Assembly (NCBI GenBank): GCA_947631015.1
Contig: CANRJS010000020.1
Coordinates: 1 to 39,501, forward strand
Length of the DNA: 39,501 nt
Source: an uncultured Clostridia bacterium
GTDB taxonomy: Bacteria > Bacillota > Clostridia > Oscillospirales > JAAYOS01
Direction of reading: 5' to 3'
Both the position numbers and the translations under genes were made by a program. The notes under the pieces are model-generated. The model had not been told where the DNA came from and did not search any database. It worked only from the letters and a program-made list of their open reading frames with translations. Positions 19,370-26,840 of this stretch are shown piece by piece; within the stretch, counting starts at the first letter, position 1; each line of letters begins with the position of its first letter.

Positions 19370-19447
19370 AACTTTTTTCGGCCTCTAATCCAACATTTCA
19401 CCAAAGTTGCAAAAAATCACTTCTATTACACTTATGTTACAAATCGG

Positions 19448-19474
19448 CTTCCCCCCTTGCAATAAGGGGGGAAG
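19448..19474. promoter_or_regulatory. Perfect inverted repeat overlapping the S-layer promoter
   Basis: Arms CTTCCCCCCTT (19448-19458) and AAGGGGGGAAG (19464-19474) around GCAAT. It covers the -35 hexamer and part of the spacer. No T-run follows, so an operator is more likely than a holB terminator, though either is possible. Confidence 0.5.
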
Positions 19475-19485
19475 TGGTGTATTAT
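19457..19485 (+). promoter_or_regulatory. Promoter of the first S-layer gene
   Basis: TTGCAA (19457-19462) and TATTAT (19480-19485) with a 17-bp spacer. The -10 ends 9 bp before the block shared with the second S-layer gene begins (19495), so the promoter is outside any segment exchanged between the copies. The leader is about 50 nt. Confidence 0.7.
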
Positions 19486-19494
19486 CCGAATTGT

Positions 19495-19771
19495 GGCAGG
19501 AGTGTCATGCCAAAAACACCAAACAGGAGGAAAAGAACAAATGAAGAACCTGAAGAAAGTTCTGTCCCTGGCTCTTGCGTTTGCGATGGTGCTGGGTCTG
19601 TGCATCGGGGCAATGGCCGCCGATACCAAGACTCAGAACGTCACAACGCTCAAGGACTGGGCAGACGTAACCAACAAGGACGCGGCACAGCTTCTGAACG
19701 CGTTCAACATCATGCAGGGCGACGGCAACGGCAATTTCCGTCCGGCCGACCCGGTCACCCGTGCAGAGGCC
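19495..19771 (+). repeat. Outer inverted repeat, left copy (S-layer 5' block)
   Basis: Matches 25217-25493 on the opposite strand over 277 bp with one difference (19724, G against A). It covers the leader from GGCAGGAGTGTCATGCC, the ribosome site, signal peptide and most of the first SLH repeat. Perfect identity runs 229 bp (19495-19723). Confidence 0.97.
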
Positions 19772-22243
19772 GCGAAGATGATTGCTGTCGCTCTTTGGGG
19801 CGGCGCGGATCTTTCGGCCAACTTTACCGAAGTGGGCGATGTCTTTGCCGATGTTAAGAGCACCGACTGGTTTGCCGGCTATGTAAACTACGCCGCGACC
19901 ATCGGCATCGTCGCCGGCCGCAACGCCACTACCTTCGACCCGCAGGGCAACGTCACCGGCTACGAGCTTCTCAAGATGACCCTTACCGCTCTCGGCTATG
20001 ACCAGGATGATGAGGGTCTTGTCGGCGCCAACTGGAAGATCAGGACCATGGCTCTTGCTATGGGCAGCAACGGTCTTGCCGACCTCACCAAGGACGTCAA
20101 GGTCACTAGCTGGGACGCTCCGCTCAACCGCGACAACACCGCGAAGGTTGTTGCGAACATGATCAATCGCACTATCGTCAAGTACGACCGTGACGGCTAC
20201 ATTGATGAGACCAGCACGAAGACCTTTGGCGTTCAGTACCTCAAGCTTGAGGAAGTTCCCGGTATTCTTGTTGCTAACTCCTACGCTGCTATGCCTAAGA
20301 ATCAGTACAAGAACTCTGAGACTGAGACCGTTACCGGCAACTTCGAGGTCAGCGATCCGGATCATTACAACTCCGTCCTTCTGCCGATAGTGGATGGCAA
20401 GTACGGCACGCCGATAGATGTCAACACCACCAGCGGCCTGTATGACCTCGGCTCTTACGCTACCGCTTACAAGAACAACAAGACCCCGATTTCTGTTGCT
20501 ATCACCCCCGCTACCGTTGTTACCAATCCTTACGCCGGCACGGACTCGTCCACGGCTCTTACTATTGGTTCCAACACCAGCACGGCTTACACCGCTGTTA
20601 CCAAGCTCGACACTGACGGCAACGGAAAGACCAACGTTACCATAACCGTGAACTATGCTGCCGCTATCTCGGATGTCAAGGCTGTCATAGAGAGCGAGAC
20701 TTGGGGCACCGTGTACCAGACCGGCAACGTTGCTTGGCGTGACGCTTATGAGGACGCCACCACGCTTCCGCAGAGCATCAAGGCTATTAAGTTTGTTACC
20801 GGCGCTGCTGCCGCTAAGGACGACAAGGTTCTTACGGTTGAGAGCACTAATGCAAGCAAGAAGACCGTCACTCTGGGCGCTGCTCTTGAGACCGTCGAGG
20901 GCACCAACACCCGTATCAACGACACCGACTACTACATTGACGGTGTCAAGTATACCAACAAGGTTGCGTCCAGCTCGAATGTTACTCTCGGATTCGGCGC
21001 TACCGGTGTCTTCTACACTTATCCGGGCTCGACCAATATAGTCACTGCTAAGATAAGCGGCGGCGCAGAGACCAGCGTTGCACTTCTCTATGATGCCGGA
21101 TACACCGCAGAGAGCGGCACGAGCGCTATGGGCGGCGGCACGAACGCTGCTGTTATGACTGTTGCGGCTATCCTGCCGGACGGCACCAAGGGCACCTACA
21201 CCGTTACCCAGTATGGTACCGGTGAGCAGGCCATAAAGCTCAACAAAAAGGACAAGATTAATGAAGTCATTGGCGTGAACGGCGACCTCAAGAACCTTAG
21301 GGAGCATGACGACAACGGCGCGCTGGCCAACACCAATGAGGCCAACTATCTTGTTGAGTACTATCTTGACAAAGATGGCAACATGATAATCACTGCGGCC
21401 TGCAAACTCGACGGGACCGGCATTGTCAACCAGGAGGTTAAGACCACTACCACGAGCGTTTCGGTTGGTAATACCAGCAAGTTTATCACTTCTGAGACCG
21501 TCACCTTCGTCCAGACTTCGACGAACACCGCGTATACCGCCGAAGATTGGACCGTCTACGTTGGCAGAACCGTCAGCTACACCGTAAAGGCGGGCGGCAA
21601 GGTTGATATCGTTCTCGGCGCCTACAATGGCATTGCCGATGCGGCCATTAAGTATGCCACCGTCGAGGCGAAGGACCTTGTAGCCGCTACCGGCGTGACC
21701 GAGGACTTCTACTATGTTATCGCTGACCACGGCCAGATTAGCGCTGACTATGATGAGTTTGTCGTATTTGATGCCAGCGCGGGCAAGGTCATCACCATCA
21801 ACGTTGCTCACTCCAGCGCGAGCGGCATAGATGAGGGCGAGTTCTATACCAAGTATGACGGCAGCACGCTTACCGTAGAAAAGTTCTTTAACACCGATAA
21901 CGATATCAAGGGTTATGTCACCAACTTCGCCAACGACATAGTAGTTGTCTCTGGCTTTGGTAAAGAGAACAGCGGCGAGTATCCGTTCGATATCAAGGGC
22001 GCTTATGTTGTCAACGACAAGACCAAGTTCTTTGTTATCGGCGATGAGGAGACCAGCGCGAAGATAACTGCTGCTGACGTGGCAGTTCAGGGTCCGACCA
22101 CCGAGCCGGCCAAGAGCGCTGATGGTACCAAGCTCTCGACTCCGTATCAGGCGATCGTAGTTGTTGACGGCGGCGTTGCTACTACTGTTATCCTCTTCGC
22201 GGAGGAGCAGGCGCTTGAGACCACAATCTCCACCGGCCGCTAA
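19541..22243 (+). CDS. SLH-domain S-layer protein, copy A (promoter-proximal)
   Basis: 900-residue secreted surface protein. Signal peptide 1-26 (MKNLKKVLSLALAFAMV, cleavage AMA|AD). Three SLH repeats: about 36-84 (FRPADPVTRAEAAKM), 101-153 (FDPQGNVTGYELLKM) and a weaker one near 165-208. SLH repeats bind pyruvylated wall polysaccharide. The remainder is Thr/Ala/Val-rich, beta-type, with no catalytic motif, and fits a structural lattice protein. AGGAGG lies 10 nt before the ATG; the leader has a good promoter. Codons differ from neighbours: AUC/AUU are common while other genes here favour AUA, as expected for a very highly expressed gene. Paralogous with the convergent gene at 22760-25447 along its whole length. 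Confidence 0.93.
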   Translation: MKNLKKVLSLALAFAMVLGLCIGAMAADTKTQNVTTLKDWADVTNKDAAQLLNAFNIMQGDGNGNFRPADPVTRAEAAKMIAVALWGGADLSANFTEVGDVFADVKSTDWFAGYVNYAATIGIVAGRNATTFDPQGNVTGYELLKMTLTALGYDQDDEGLVGANWKIRTMALAMGSNGLADLTKDVKVTSWDAPLNRDNTAKVVANMINRTIVKYDRDGYIDETSTKTFGVQYLKLEEVPGILVANSYAAMPKNQYKNSETETVTGNFEVSDPDHYNSVLLPIVDGKYGTPIDVNTTSGLYDLGSYATAYKNNKTPISVAITPATVVTNPYAGTDSSTALTIGSNTSTAYTAVTKLDTDGNGKTNVTITVNYAAAISDVKAVIESETWGTVYQTGNVAWRDAYEDATTLPQSIKAIKFVTGAAAAKDDKVLTVESTNASKKTVTLGAALETVEGTNTRINDTDYYIDGVKYTNKVASSSNVTLGFGATGVFYTYPGSTNIVTAKISGGAETSVALLYDAGYTAESGTSAMGGGTNAAVMTVAAILPDGTKGTYTVTQYGTGEQAIKLNKKDKINEVIGVNGDLKNLREHDDNGALANTNEANYLVEYYLDKDGNMIITAACKLDGTGIVNQEVKTTTTSVSVGNTSKFITSETVTFVQTSTNTAYTAEDWTVYVGRTVSYTVKAGGKVDIVLGAYNGIADAAIKYATVEAKDLVAATGVTEDFYYVIADHGQISADYDEFVVFDASAGKVITINVAHSSASGIDEGEFYTKYDGSTLTVEKFFNTDNDIKGYVTNFANDIVVVSGFGKENSGEYPFDIKGAYVVNDKTKFFVIGDEETSAKITAADVAVQGPTTEPAKSADGTKLSTPYQAIVVVDGGVATTVILFAEEQALETTISTGR

Positions 22244-22254
22244 GTCCCCACAGC

Positions 22255-22299
22255 AACACACACGTTAAAACGCTTTGGCATGGCGTGAAAACCTGCAAA
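22255..22299 (+). repeat. Inner inverted repeat, left copy
   Basis: 45 bp identical to 22703-22747 on the other strand, starting AACACACACGTTAAAACG. It lies just after the stop codon of copy A and extends the homology of the two genes past their ends. Confidence 0.93.
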
Positions 22300-22300
22300 G

Positions 22301-22335
22301 AAGCCGCCTCGGGCATACTGCCCGAGGCGGCTTTT
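22301..22335 (+). terminator. Terminator of S-layer copy A
   Basis: Perfect 15-bp arms AAGCCGCCTCGGGCA and complement around TAC, ending in TTTT. Confidence 0.85.
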
Positions 22336-22363
22336 CGCGCTGTTCGCGGGAAATCGCGCGATT

Positions 22364-22442
22364 CCCGCGCGGTCGCCGACCGCGCGGGATCCTGATGCGC
22401 CCGGCAGAATGTCGCGCTGTGCGGCAAGCCGGCGGGCGCATT
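22364..22442. repeat. Palindromic repeat modules between the S-layer genes
   Basis: Hairpin CCCGCGCGGTC-gcc-GACCGCGCGGG (22364-22388), a base-pair-compensated version of those at 14.4 and 30.3 kb, followed by the module GATGCGCCCGG...CGGGCGCATT (22394-22442). The gap 22244-22759 holds no gene. Confidence 0.7.
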
Positions 22443-22598
22443 CTCCGCGCTGTGCTGTGCCGGGACGCGCGGGCGGGGTGCGCGCCGCAACGGCGGCGCG
22501 CACGGCGGCGCGGCGGTGACGAGGCCGGGCGCGGAGCCGAAAGCTCGCGGGTGCGGCGCAGGTTCGCGCGGTGCCGAGAGCCGCATCCGCCGCACCGC

Positions 22599-22638
22599 CG
22601 CCTAGGGCGCGCTCGCGGCCGCGAGCGCGCCCTAGGCG
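22599..22638. repeat. 40-bp perfect palindrome
   Basis: Two 20-nt halves meet at GCGG|CCGC with no loop; each half contains CCTAGG and GCGCGC. It lies about 120 bp from the symmetry axis of the S-layer locus. A cruciform or transcription-blocking structure is possible. Confidence 0.9.
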
Positions 22639-22667
22639 CACCCCGCTTCCCCCGCCGCAAACGAAAC

Positions 22668-22695
22668 CGCCCCCGAGCCGAAAGGCTCGGGGGCG
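22668..22695 (-). terminator. Probable terminator of S-layer copy B
   Basis: Perfect 12-bp arms (CGCCCCCGAGCC and complement) around a GAAA loop. The tail on the minus strand is only moderately T-rich (GGTTTCGTTT). Confidence 0.6.
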
Positions 22696-22702
22696 ATCCT
22701 CA

Positions 22703-22747
22703 TTTGCAGGTTTTCACGCCATGCCAAAGCGTTTTAACGTGTGTGTT
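22703..22747 (-). repeat. Inner inverted repeat, right copy
   Basis: Exact 45-bp inverted counterpart of 22255-22299, just past the stop of copy B. Confidence 0.93.
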
Positions 22748-22759
22748 ACTGTGTGGGAC

Positions 22760-25447
22760 TTACTCGGCTGCCGGAACCTGCTCCTCCGCGAAGAGGATAA
22801 CGGTGGTAACAACACCCTTATCAACCTCGACAATCGCCTGATACGGAATAGTAGTTTCGCTCTTGGGCTCGCTAGTCGGACCCTGAATAGCAACGTCAGC
22901 CGCAGTTATCTTCTCGCTAGTCTCTTCGTCGCCGATGACGAAGTACTTGGTCTCGTCGTTGACAACGTAAGCCTTGTTCTCAAGGGCATACTCGTCACCA
23001 GTCGATGTCTTTGCAAAAGACGAAATAACAATGATGTTATTGGCGAAGCTGGAGACATAGCCCTTGGGAGCGCCAGCAAAGGTTATCTCATCCGAGAAGT
23101 TGTTGTTGGCGAATGTGGTATAGAACTTGCCCTCTGCCGGCTTGTTCGACGCACCGGTCGCCACATTTACGGTCTTGACCTCGTTGGCGCTCGCGTCAAA
23201 GACGACATACTCGTCATAGAGGGGCGAAACCTGGCCGTGTGCGGCAATGATGTAGTAGAAGTCATTGCTCTTACCAGAGTCAGGAACAAGGGAATTGGAC
23301 TTGACAACCGCGTACTTAACAGCAGTATCCTTTATGCCGTTGTAGTCGCCGAGAACGACTGTAGCTGTGTTATTCTGGGCGATGCTGTAATTGACAGTCC
23401 TTCCGACGTAGGCAGTCCAATCCTCAGAGGTGTTAGTGCCGTTAACAGAAGTCTGAATGAAGGTGACAGTCTCCGGGGTGATCAGCTTGCTCGCACCACC
23501 AACCAAAACGCTCGTGGTGCTGGTCGTGATATTGGTCGCAGCGGTAGTGCTGCCGATCGTTCCGCCAGTCGTGCAAAGCTCGGTGATTATCATATTACCG
23601 TTTTCGTCAAGATAATAGTTGACGAGGTAGTTGTTGTCTCCTCCAGTAGCGCCAGTTATGCCAACGGTTACCCAAGAGTTAGTGTTCAGCCCGTTCAGTG
23701 AATTGCCCGAGCCAAAGACATTGATAATACCGTCATTGCTATTGAGGTCGGTGGTTCCGAACTTGGTAGCAGTGTAAGTACCCTTGGTGCCGTCCGACAG
23801 GATAGCCGCAACGGTGACAACCGGCTTGGTGGCAGTGCCGCCGATAGCAGTGCTTCCGCCGCCCGGGGTCAAACCTGCGTCATAGAGAAGCGCAACGCTA
23901 GTCTGTGCACCGCCGCTTATCGTAGCAGTGACAATTTCGGTCGTGCCCGGATAGGTGTAGAAGACTCCGCTGACGCCGAACCCGGAAAGGTCAACGTTCG
24001 ACCCGGTTTTGTCGGTATACTCAGTGCCGTCAATGTAGTACTTGGGAGCGTTAATGCGGGTGTTTGTGCCCTCAACGGTCTCCAGAGCAGCGCCGATGAC
24101 AACCTTGGTCGCAGGAGTAGTAGACGAAATCAGCGTGCTCTCAACCGTAACGACCTTATCGTCCTTCGCGGCAGTAGCGCCAGTGACAAACTTGATTGCC
24201 TTGAAGCTGTTCGGAAGCGTAGCCGCATCCTCGTAAGCGTCACGCCATGCAACGGAGCCAGTCTGGTAAACGGTGCCCCAAGTCTCGCTCTCCACAACGG
24301 CCTTGACGTCAGACAGCGTCGAGTAATGGACGGTTATGGTGAGGTCGGTCTTACCGTTCGCATTGGTATCGAGCTTGACGGCGGAGGTGTACTTGGCGCC
24401 GCTTTCTGTACCAATGGTAAGTGCCTTAGCGCCCGTGTCCGTACCCGCATAGGGGTTAGTCACAACGGCAGCGGGGGTTATGGCAACGGAAATGACGGTA
24501 TCGCCCTTCTTGTAGGCGACAGCCTTGGAGCCGAGGTCATACAGACCGCTGGTGGTGTTGACGTCGATCGCATTGCCATACTTGTTGTCCACTATCGGCA
24601 GAAGGACGGAGTTGAAATGCGCCGGATCGCTGACCTCGTAGTTGCCCGTAGGAGCAGCCGTACCGGTAGCGGCATTATAGTACTGATCCTTAGGCATGGT
24701 AGCATAGGCGTTAGCCACAAGGATGCCCTCGACCTTTTCGAGCTTGAGGTACATCTCGCCAAAGGTCGGAATGGGAGCAGTAGCGGTGCTTTCAATGACG
24801 TAGCCGTCACGGTCATACTTGACGGTGGTGGCGGTTATCATGTTAGCGATGACCTGCGCGGTGTCCTCACGGTTGATCGGGAGATTCCAGTTGGCGATAT
24901 CAACGCCCTCGGTCAGGTCGTTGCCCGTGGCGAGGATCATCGTCTTGGTCTGCCAACCGGCACCGACGAGGCCCTCGTCCTCCTGCCTGTAGCCGAGAGC
25001 AGTGAGGGTCATCTTGAGCAGCTCGTAACCGGTGACGTTGCCCTGCGGGTCGAAGGTGGTGGCGTTGCGGCCCGCAACGAGCTCGGAAGTCGCAGCGTAC
25101 TTCACGTAGCCGGCAAACCAGTCGGTGCTATTAATGTCGGTGAAGGTAGTGGTGCCGTCCTTGAAGAGATCCTTGAGATCATCGCCGCCCCAAAGAGCGA
25201 CAGAGATCATCTTGGTGGCCTCTGCACGGGTGACCGGGTCGGCCGGACGGAAATTGCCGTTGCTGTCGCCCTGCATGATGTTGAACGCGTTCAGAAGCTG
25301 TGCCGCGTCCTTGTTGGTTACGTCTGCCCAGTCCTTGAGCGTTGTGACGTTCTGAGTCTTGGTATCGGCGGCCATTGCCCCGATGCACAGACCCAGCACC
25401 ATCGCAAACGCAAGAGCCAGGGACAGAACTTTCTTCAGGTTCTTCAT
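22760..25447 (-). CDS. SLH-domain S-layer protein, copy B (probably silent here)
   Basis: 895-residue paralogue of the S-layer protein at 19541-22243, on the opposite strand and tail to tail with it. Signal peptide and first SLH repeat are almost identical to copy A; from about residue 78 the sequences drift apart, with many substitutions and several indels in the middle, while segments such as GLYDLGS, SDVKAV(V/I)ESETWGTVYQTG, ALETVEGTNTRIN and the C-terminal AEEQ remain shared. The same ribosome site precedes the ATG. The 208 bp upstream show no sigma-A promoter, only the 3' end of the integrase gene, so this copy is probably unexpressed or weakly transcribed by read-through. The reading frame is intact, which argues that it is used at times. 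Confidence 0.93.
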   Translation of the reverse strand: MKNLKKVLSLALAFAMVLGLCIGAMAADTKTQNVTTLKDWADVTNKDAAQLLNAFNIMQGDSNGNFRPADPVTRAEATKMISVALWGGDDLKDLFKDGTTTFTDINSTDWFAGYVKYAATSELVAGRNATTFDPQGNVTGYELLKMTLTALGYRQEDEGLVGAGWQTKTMILATGNDLTEGVDIANWNLPINREDTAQVIANMITATTVKYDRDGYVIESTATAPIPTFGEMYLKLEKVEGILVANAYATMPKDQYYNAATGTAAPTGNYEVSDPAHFNSVLLPIVDNKYGNAIDVNTTSGLYDLGSKAVAYKKGDTVISVAITPAAVVTNPYAGTDTGAKALTIGTESGAKYTSAVKLDTNANGKTDLTITVHYSTLSDVKAVVESETWGTVYQTGSVAWRDAYEDAATLPNSFKAIKFVTGATAAKDDKVVTVESTLISSTTPATKVVIGAALETVEGTNTRINAPKYYIDGTEYTDKTGSNVDLSGFGVSGVFYTYPGTTEIVTATISGGAQTSVALLYDAGLTPGGGSTAIGGTATKPVVTVAAILSDGTKGTYTATKFGTTDLNSNDGIINVFGSGNSLNGLNTNSWVTVGITGATGGDNNYLVNYYLDENGNMIITELCTTGGTIGSTTAATNITTSTTSVLVGGASKLITPETVTFIQTSVNGTNTSEDWTAYVGRTVNYSIAQNNTATVVLGDYNGIKDTAVKYAVVKSNSLVPDSGKSNDFYYIIAAHGQVSPLYDEYVVFDASANEVKTVNVATGASNKPAEGKFYTTFANNNFSDEITFAGAPKGYVSSFANNIIVISSFAKTSTGDEYALENKAYVVNDETKYFVIGDEETSEKITAADVAIQGPTSEPKSETTIPYQAIVEVDKGVVTTVILFAEEQVPAAE

Positions 25448-25493
25448 TTGTTCTTTTCCTCCTGTTTGGTGTTTTTGGCATGACACTCCTGCC
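25217..25493 (-). repeat. Outer inverted repeat, right copy (S-layer 5' block)
   Basis: Inverted counterpart of 19495-19771, with one mismatch in 277 bp. Upstream of 25493 the two loci share nothing: the promoter of copy A is replaced by GC-rich sequence next to the integrase gene. Confidence 0.97.
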
Positions 25494-25655: not shown

Positions 25656-26840
25656 TTACAGCGACGCCGCCTGTGACGACCCGTACAGCAGCTCCGCGAG
25701 CCGGTCGACACACGCGCGCTTCTGACCCGGCAGCGAGTGCGTGTAGATGTTGAGCGTCATCTGCGTGTCCGAGTGGCCGAGCAGCTCGCTCAGGCTCTTG
25801 ATGTCCAGCCCGCTTTCGACCCAGCGTGTCGCGAACGTGTGGCGGAGGCCGTGCAGAGTGACCGGCGGCAGACCCGCCTCGTCCTCGACCGAGCGGAGCA
25901 GGCGGCGGATGTCTGTCCCGTCCGACAGCGCGCCGGTGCTTGTGAGGAAGAGAAAACCGCGCTCGAGCCACGTTCCGTCCCACCGCGGCGACGCGCGCCA
26001 CCGTGCTGCCGACCGCCGTATCATCTCGGCGCGGCGGAGCATCGCCGCGCGCAGCAGCTCCGCCGTGAACGTGTCTATCGGGATGGTGCGGCGGCTCTGC
26101 CGCGTCTTCGGATCGCCCTCGCATATCGGCGCGCGCCCTGTCCCCGGCATGCGGACGCGCCCGACCGTCCGCCGCACGTGCAGCTCCTTCCGTTCGAGGT
26201 CGACGTCCTCGAGCCGCAGCCCCAGCGCCTCCCCTATCCGCAGACCGGTACGGAGCAGCAGCACCGGCACGGCGGCGAGCCATTGGCGCGGGAACCGGCT
26301 CATCGCCGCGAGCTCGAACCGCCGCTGTTCCTCCGGCGAGAAGACCAGCCGCTCGGGCTTGTCCGCCGGAGGCAGGACGAGCCGCACCGCCGGGTTCTTC
26401 TCGATGTAGCCGAGATCCGCCGCCTTTTGCAGCGAGGTCTGGAGGCGCGTCCGCAGATGCGAGACGGTCGAGCGTGCGAACCGGCCGAGCTCCCGCGCGA
26501 GGAAGCGCTGAAGCGCCTCCTCCCGGAGGAGATACAGCGGCGTCTCGCCGAGCGCCGGGACGATGTGGCCGTACAGCTCCGCGTGATACGCGGCGTAGGT
26601 TCGCGGACGCACCGTCGGCCGGACGTACACCTCGAGCCACTCCGAAAGCCACTCGCCGAGCGTCCGCGTGTCCGCCGGAGGCGGAGACGCCGCTGCGCTC
26701 CGCAGCAGCGCCGCCGCCTCCGTCCGGGTGTGTGAGTAGAGGTATCGCCGCCGGCCGTCCGGCGCGGTGAACTGCGCCGTCCACAGCCCGTCCCGGCGGC
26801 GATAGATGGAGCCCTCACCGTTTGCGCGTCTTTTTGTCAT
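25656..26840 (-). CDS. Integrase-type tyrosine recombinase beside the S-layer locus
   Basis: 394 residues, phage/ICE-like integrase architecture. N-terminal arm-binding domain (about 1-50, NGEGSIYRRRDGLWTAQF), SAM-like core-binding domain (about 60-150) and catalytic domain (165-385). All catalytic residues are present: Arg201 in RTGLRIGEAL, Lys245 in DPKTRQSRR, His330 and Arg333 in HGLRHTFATR, His356 in LLGHSDTQ and Tyr366 in NIYTHS. The ATG at 26840 has AGGAGGG 8 nt upstream. No excisionase, relaxase or phage gene is adjacent, so it is either a relic of a lost element or a resident enzyme. It reads toward S-layer copy B, 208 bp away, with no terminator seen between. A link to inversion of the S-layer genes is possible but unproven. 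Confidence 0.92.
   Translation of the reverse strand: MTKRRANGEGSIYRRRDGLWTAQFTAPDGRRRYLYSHTRTEAAALLRSAAASPPPADTRTLGEWLSEWLEVYVRPTVRPRTYAAYHAELYGHIVPALGETPLYLLREEALQRFLARELGRFARSTVSHLRTRLQTSLQKAADLGYIEKNPAVRLVLPPADKPERLVFSPEEQRRFELAAMSRFPRQWLAAVPVLLLRTGLRIGEALGLRLEDVDLERKELHVRRTVGRVRMPGTGRAPICEGDPKTRQSRRTIPIDTFTAELLRAAMLRRAEMIRRSAARWRASPRWDGTWLERGFLFLTSTGALSDGTDIRRLLRSVEDEAGLPPVTLHGLRHTFATRWVESGLDIKSLSELLGHSDTQMTLNIYTHSLPGQKRACVDRLAELLYGSSQAASL

Follow-up and report, generated by a model that had tools for sequence, protein, structure and literature searches.

Among the closest described counterparts of the locus reported here is the slp segment of Lactobacillus acidophilus, a chromosomal stretch of 6 kb whose inversion exchanges the active for the silent S-layer gene, the silent gene being promoterless (Boot et al. 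1996, via PMC7858073 and PMC6015585). In the Vpma locus of Mycoplasma agalactiae, inversions place alternative surface-protein genes behind the single promoter of the locus; the tyrosine recombinase Xer1 is encoded adjacently and its putative sites lie in the 5' untranslated regions (PMC2268961). In the cwpV switch of Clostridioides difficile with its recombinase RecV (PMC2784873), a single gene is reported to be turned ON or OFF by a short element that inverts upstream of it. Our literature search retrieved no description of invertible SLH S-layer genes, its coverage being incomplete and no proof of absence, and the main text of two genome-wide surveys of inversions contains no mention of S-layers or SLH. 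What phages and the host immune system meet as the outermost coat is the S-layer.

We analyzed a segment through which cells of an uncultured Clostridia bacterium of the gut probably swap this protein coat. The window, that is the whole stretch of DNA examined, spans 39,501 nucleotides and belongs to contig 20 of a 1.89-Mb genome that is 98% complete. Its relevant features, in order of position, are the following:

19457 to 19485, plus strand: promoter-like site TTGCAA-17-TATTAT from a consensus scan, fixed and outside the invertible segment
19495 to 19511, plus strand: candidate crossover site GGCAGGAGTGTCATGCC (inferred) at the outer edge of the left arm, exact at both segment ends in three species
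19495 to 19812, plus strand: left inverted-repeat arm (318 nt, 98% identity), comprising leader, ribosome-binding site, signal peptide and first SLH
19541 to 22243, plus strand: SLH S-layer-type gene A, promoter-proximal and predicted ON (900 aa by translation; Pfam SLH 5e-20)
22246 to 22299, plus strand: inner inverted-repeat arm at the 3' end of A (54 nt, 96% identity), conserved in congeners
22303 to 22335, plus strand: terminator T1, an orientation marker (stem hairpin of -25.7 kcal/mol, z -5.95)
22660 to 22695, minus strand: terminator T2, an orientation marker (terminator scan; hairpin folded with flanking bases, z -3.5)
22703 to 22756, minus strand: inner inverted-repeat arm at the 3' end of B (54 nt, 96% identity)
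22760 to 25447, minus strand: SLH S-layer-type gene B, promoter-distal and predicted OFF (895 aa by translation; Pfam SLH 2.9e-20)
25176 to 25493, minus strand: right inverted-repeat arm (318 nt, 98% identity)
25477 to 25493, minus strand: candidate crossover site (inferred) at the outer edge of the right arm, exact at both segment ends in three species
25656 to 26840, minus strand: tyrosine recombinase/integrase, the probable inversion enzyme by inference (394 aa; Pfam Phage_integrase 3.7e-25)

A first-pass annotation of this DNA had described two full-length SLH genes lying tail to tail within outer inverted repeats, and our analysis bears it out: A and B each have two SLH stretches near the N-terminus (Pfam PF00395). 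A signal peptide and N-terminal SLH domains are what we require of an SLH S-layer-type protein, and both are present; the signal peptide comes from reading the sequence alone. Judged by these features A and B are SLH-domain S-layer-type proteins, their formation of a paracrystalline lattice being only presumed. Searched against solved structures, the SLH proteins matched nothing but Sap, in its SLH portion (E about 3e-4); an NCBIfam search with the SLH proteins gave no match, and a structure prediction for gene A from six sequences was too poor for use (pLDDT 46). The same annotation had reported 5' blocks, untranslated leader included, that match over 277 bp with one mismatch before the proteins diverge. 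The figure is exact, counting from 19495 and with the mismatch at 19724, and beyond it the identity of A and B drops to about 70-85% in blocks, the proteins being 67% identical overall.

The promoter-like site ends at 19485, nine bases ahead of the left arm; it is identical on the holB side in three congeners and absent from the recombinase side. The consensus scan outside the right arm detected no comparable promoter-like site directed into gene B. Low read-through into B is possible, since this gene is co-directional with the recombinase gene. The spacer of the promoter is overlapped by a 13-pair hairpin, GCTTCCCCCC...GGGGGGAAGT (window 19447-19475), identical in the three congeners, which possibly acts as an operator or as the terminator of holB. 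The 17-bp GGCAGGAGTGTCATGCC occurs in the window only at the outer repeat ends, in two copies versus 0.12 expected; alternatively to a crossover site, it could be a hairpin at the 5' end of an mRNA. Near-matches to this motif elsewhere in the genus were discarded as conserved sequence away from SLH genes, apparently within coding regions, and a scan of viral contigs for the promoter plus the site produced no match. The inner 3' repeats contain TTTGGCATG, which the outer repeat ends carry too, on the reverse strand, and these inner repeats might constitute a second recombination site.

The recombinase gene, which the first-pass annotation had not included in its reading, is intact and lies 163 bp outside the right arm. 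The nearest solved structures to its product are 6emy and relatives (Int protein), which we take to be the Tn1549 integrase. The alignment with 6emy retains the motifs TGLRI, PKT, HxxRHT, GHS and Y, so that the protein fulfils, by Pfam and by this alignment, the catalytic-domain criterion of tyrosine recombinases, R..K..HxxR..H..Y. Comparison of the congeners gives it a dN/dS of 0.05-0.14 and a dS similar to the one found for the neighboring holB, and it is therefore a maintained, working gene that has been vertically inherited.

The window genome (G000) can be compared with two congeners, G001 and G004, both MAGs of uncultured Clostridia (isolate names Lapin-003-2 bin20 and Lapin-004 bin9). 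All three have in common the order holB, promoter, two SLH genes facing each other and recombinase, with a promoter-side flank that is the same across the species and a recombinase-side flank that is so too; the recombinase is 96-97% identical among them, the SLH proteins only about 47-54%. The 5' leaders are identical within each genome and different between species, which implies concerted evolution of the 5' blocks. For the orientation test, informative sites were sorted into position-linked and side-swapped ones. Outside the repeat the ratio of position-linked to swapped sites was 49:0 for G000/G004 and 58:0 for G001/G004; from the stop codon through the terminator it was 1:12 and 0:16, respectively, and hence T1 and T2 have the opposite order in G004. 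The 3' ends of G000 and G001 have the same orientation (14:1). Terminator order alone was rejected as proof of an outer inversion, as a flip confined to the inner 3' repeats could reverse it, and for this reason an N-terminal swap and markers in the 3' untranslated region were needed. Along codons 50-250, in the N-terminal third, A agrees with the G004 copy next to the recombinase, and B with the one next to the promoter (42:5, p=2e-8). The part of the 3' untranslated region that the inner repeat does not cover stands on opposite sides in G001 and G004. The remaining coding region, in the later parts of the genes, has a mosaic similarity indicating that gene conversion also acts. Given fixed outer flanks and a reversed center in one of three species, we conclude that the segment was inverted during evolution. 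The comparison of species thus supports the inversion between outer repeats, behind a fixed promoter, that had been proposed from the window alone, and the opposite orientation found in a related genome speaks against the outcome named in advance as refuting it, namely a fixed orientation with diverged 5' blocks.

Two further observations concern the congeners. The GC-rich center between the terminators (window 22300-22702; L067 7736-8169) runs in opposite directions in G000 and G001 (a minus-strand match of 82% over 193 nt) despite the same order of the terminators, a combination explained by inversion at neither the outer nor the inner repeats. In a fourth congener, G003 (L069 9465-10274), an SLH gene is preceded by different upstream genes and accompanied by a related promoter and a site with one mismatch; the contig ends 757 bp into this SLH gene.

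The flanks are fixed, the segment is inverted between species, the 5' blocks are homogenized and the recombinase is conserved; on this basis we hold with considerable confidence that the locus is a two-state S-layer switch working by inversion of ~6 kb, with the adjacent recombinase as the most likely enzyme. In such a switch, the single promoter outside the left repeat would transcribe the adjoining SLH gene, and the distal gene, which would be promoterless, is inferred to be silent. Recombination at the outer ends of the inverted repeats would then flip the ~6-kb segment, so that the promoter comes to drive the other gene. The leader, the ribosome-binding site, the signal peptide and the first SLH module would stay as they were, and only the surface-exposed remainder would differ. 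That the tyrosine recombinase would catalyze this flip is an inference from association only, and so is inferred a useful frequency of flipping within a population: there were no reads or isolates, so switching within a clone has not been seen.

A second family of this order shows the same architecture, its recombinase belonging to a different lineage. Here genus g46 has the recombinase orthologue in 17 of 20 genomes, six of which (G061, G089, G306, G303, G302 and G307) have a convergent SLH pair adjoining it; in several more it adjoins a single or truncated SLH gene, and three contigs end within the gene. Between G303 and G302 the flanks are entirely position-linked (22:0), and the genes have 197 swapped versus 41 position-linked sites (p=1e-25), the change-over falling within about 30 bp of the leader, from -60 to -30 relative to the ATG, where the repeat has its outer end. 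These sites place the genes of the two genomes in opposite orientations. G303 has on its promoter side a gene body whose 77% identical counterpart in G307 stands on the side of the recombinase. G089 possesses two separate inverted SLH pairs (L127, L128) with a common leader and only one adjacent recombinase.

Could these inversions merely be rare and ancient events, with an orientation fixed within each species and gene B retained only as a silent reservoir for gene conversion? Conversion is indeed documented by the homogenization within genomes and by the mosaic similarity, and no evidence from within a population is available. Yet inversion with intact flanks was detected in two families, the recombinase has been maintained, and in each of the two genera compared a sample of just three species was enough to show both orientations, all of which makes a purely historical inversion unlikely in our judgment.

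A different alternative concerns the enzyme: RecA-dependent homologous recombination across the long repeats may invert the segment, next to an unrelated integrase present by chance. The arms are long enough to invite this possibility (318-904 nt), the conversion tracts vary in length (229, 482 and 126 nt exact), and the L127 pair of G089 has no recombinase alongside, one being located elsewhere in that genome. We surveyed the SLH genes across the order, comparing inverted SLH sets having similar 5' ends with other SLH loci. A recombinase is in the locus of nine of the ten inverted sets, the window genus included, versus 2/41 of the other loci (p=2e-7), and the association remains when the window genus and one locus found via its integrase are left out (p=8e-5). 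Such linkage is hard to reconcile with chance, as are the purifying selection on the recombinase and the derivation of these enzymes from at least three separate lineages, since the tree places the SLH-linked recombinases of the window genus, those of g46 and those of the G042/G160 group apart from one another. Moreover, G302 and G303 have arms of 640-750 nt, of which only the outermost ~30 bp hold the change-over. We consequently deem a RecA-dependent origin improbable. That the assembler joined the repeats in arbitrary orientation is hardly credible: exact repeats of 229, 482 and 570 nt in G000, G001 and G307 do mean that short-read assembly could have chosen the orientation of the first two, but those of only 126, 101 and 65 nt in G004, G303 and G302 are resolved by ordinary k-mers and read pairs, the orientation of G004 included, and both paths being met because both were present in the sample would itself amount to inversion.

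Returning to the recombinase-linked switch, a different arrangement is seen in a third family, f12 (G042, G160 and G258), where one copy has promoter, ribosome-binding site and ATG. In the other copies similarity starts only at the signal-peptide codons, and these headless copies would need recombination for expression, as they lack both ATG and ribosome-binding site. In G160 and G042 recombinase and promoter sit between divergent copies, so that the promoter segment would be the flipping part; in G258 the recombinase is about 4.7 kb from the nearer SLH copy. The G042 locus (L108/L109, G042:C2:1177000-1206000) contains five SLH copies in both orientations, one complete, with the tyrosine recombinase adjoining it, and four without ATG and ribosome-binding site, resembling a cassette array. 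A single family comprising all SLH-linked recombinases was ruled out by the tree, which has no single clade of them. We lean, with some reserve, towards a general system of S-layer antigenic variation, in which one order of gut Clostridia would repeatedly have built S-layer switches with linked recombinases out of different integrase lineages and in two layouts. In the first layout, convergent SLH genes would flip behind an outside promoter (window genus, g46 and G258). In the second, with recombinase and promoter between divergent SLH genes, promoter and start codon would flip (G160 and G052), the extreme case being the possible cassette array of one complete gene and four headless, silent bodies in G042. 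That at least three different recombinase lineages have been recruited to one type of gene suggests that coat switching is under strong selection in gut Clostridia. If the switch is real, the coat protein would be replaced whole and its wall anchor kept, which would explain the coexistence of coat types in one gut population.

How, then, does the locus relate to the systems already described? The parallel with slpA/slpB drawn by the first-pass annotation holds as analogy, not as homology. Two opposed S-layer genes with a common 5' region in a segment of ~6 kb are present; one promoter outside the segment is present too, at the level of sequence and without transcript data; both orientations exist between species, not within a strain. 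Common descent, with homologous Slp proteins, does not apply, the proteins here having SLH domains and no NCBIfam match. To our knowledge, Lactobacillus Slp proteins are without SLH domains. Further differences from slpA/slpB are the tyrosine recombinase gene at the edge of the segment, the uncultured Clostridia host and the recurrence of the layout across families of one order with different recombinases. An adjacent recombinase and sites in the 5' untranslated region are found in the Vpma/Xer1 system as well, whose surface proteins, however, form a multi-gene lipoprotein family and are neither S-layer proteins nor homologous to the SLH pair; the role of Xer1 was demonstrated by knock-out and complementation, whereas that of the recombinase here is inferred. 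With cwpV the locus has in common a clostridial surface protein, a tyrosine recombinase and DNA inversion; unlike cwpV, whole gene bodies would be exchanged here, leaving one S-layer gene always behind the promoter. Our best reading is a phase or antigenic switch of the S-layer that would work like the slpA/slpB inversion, with SLH proteins as the coat and, in all likelihood, a tyrosine recombinase dedicated to it.
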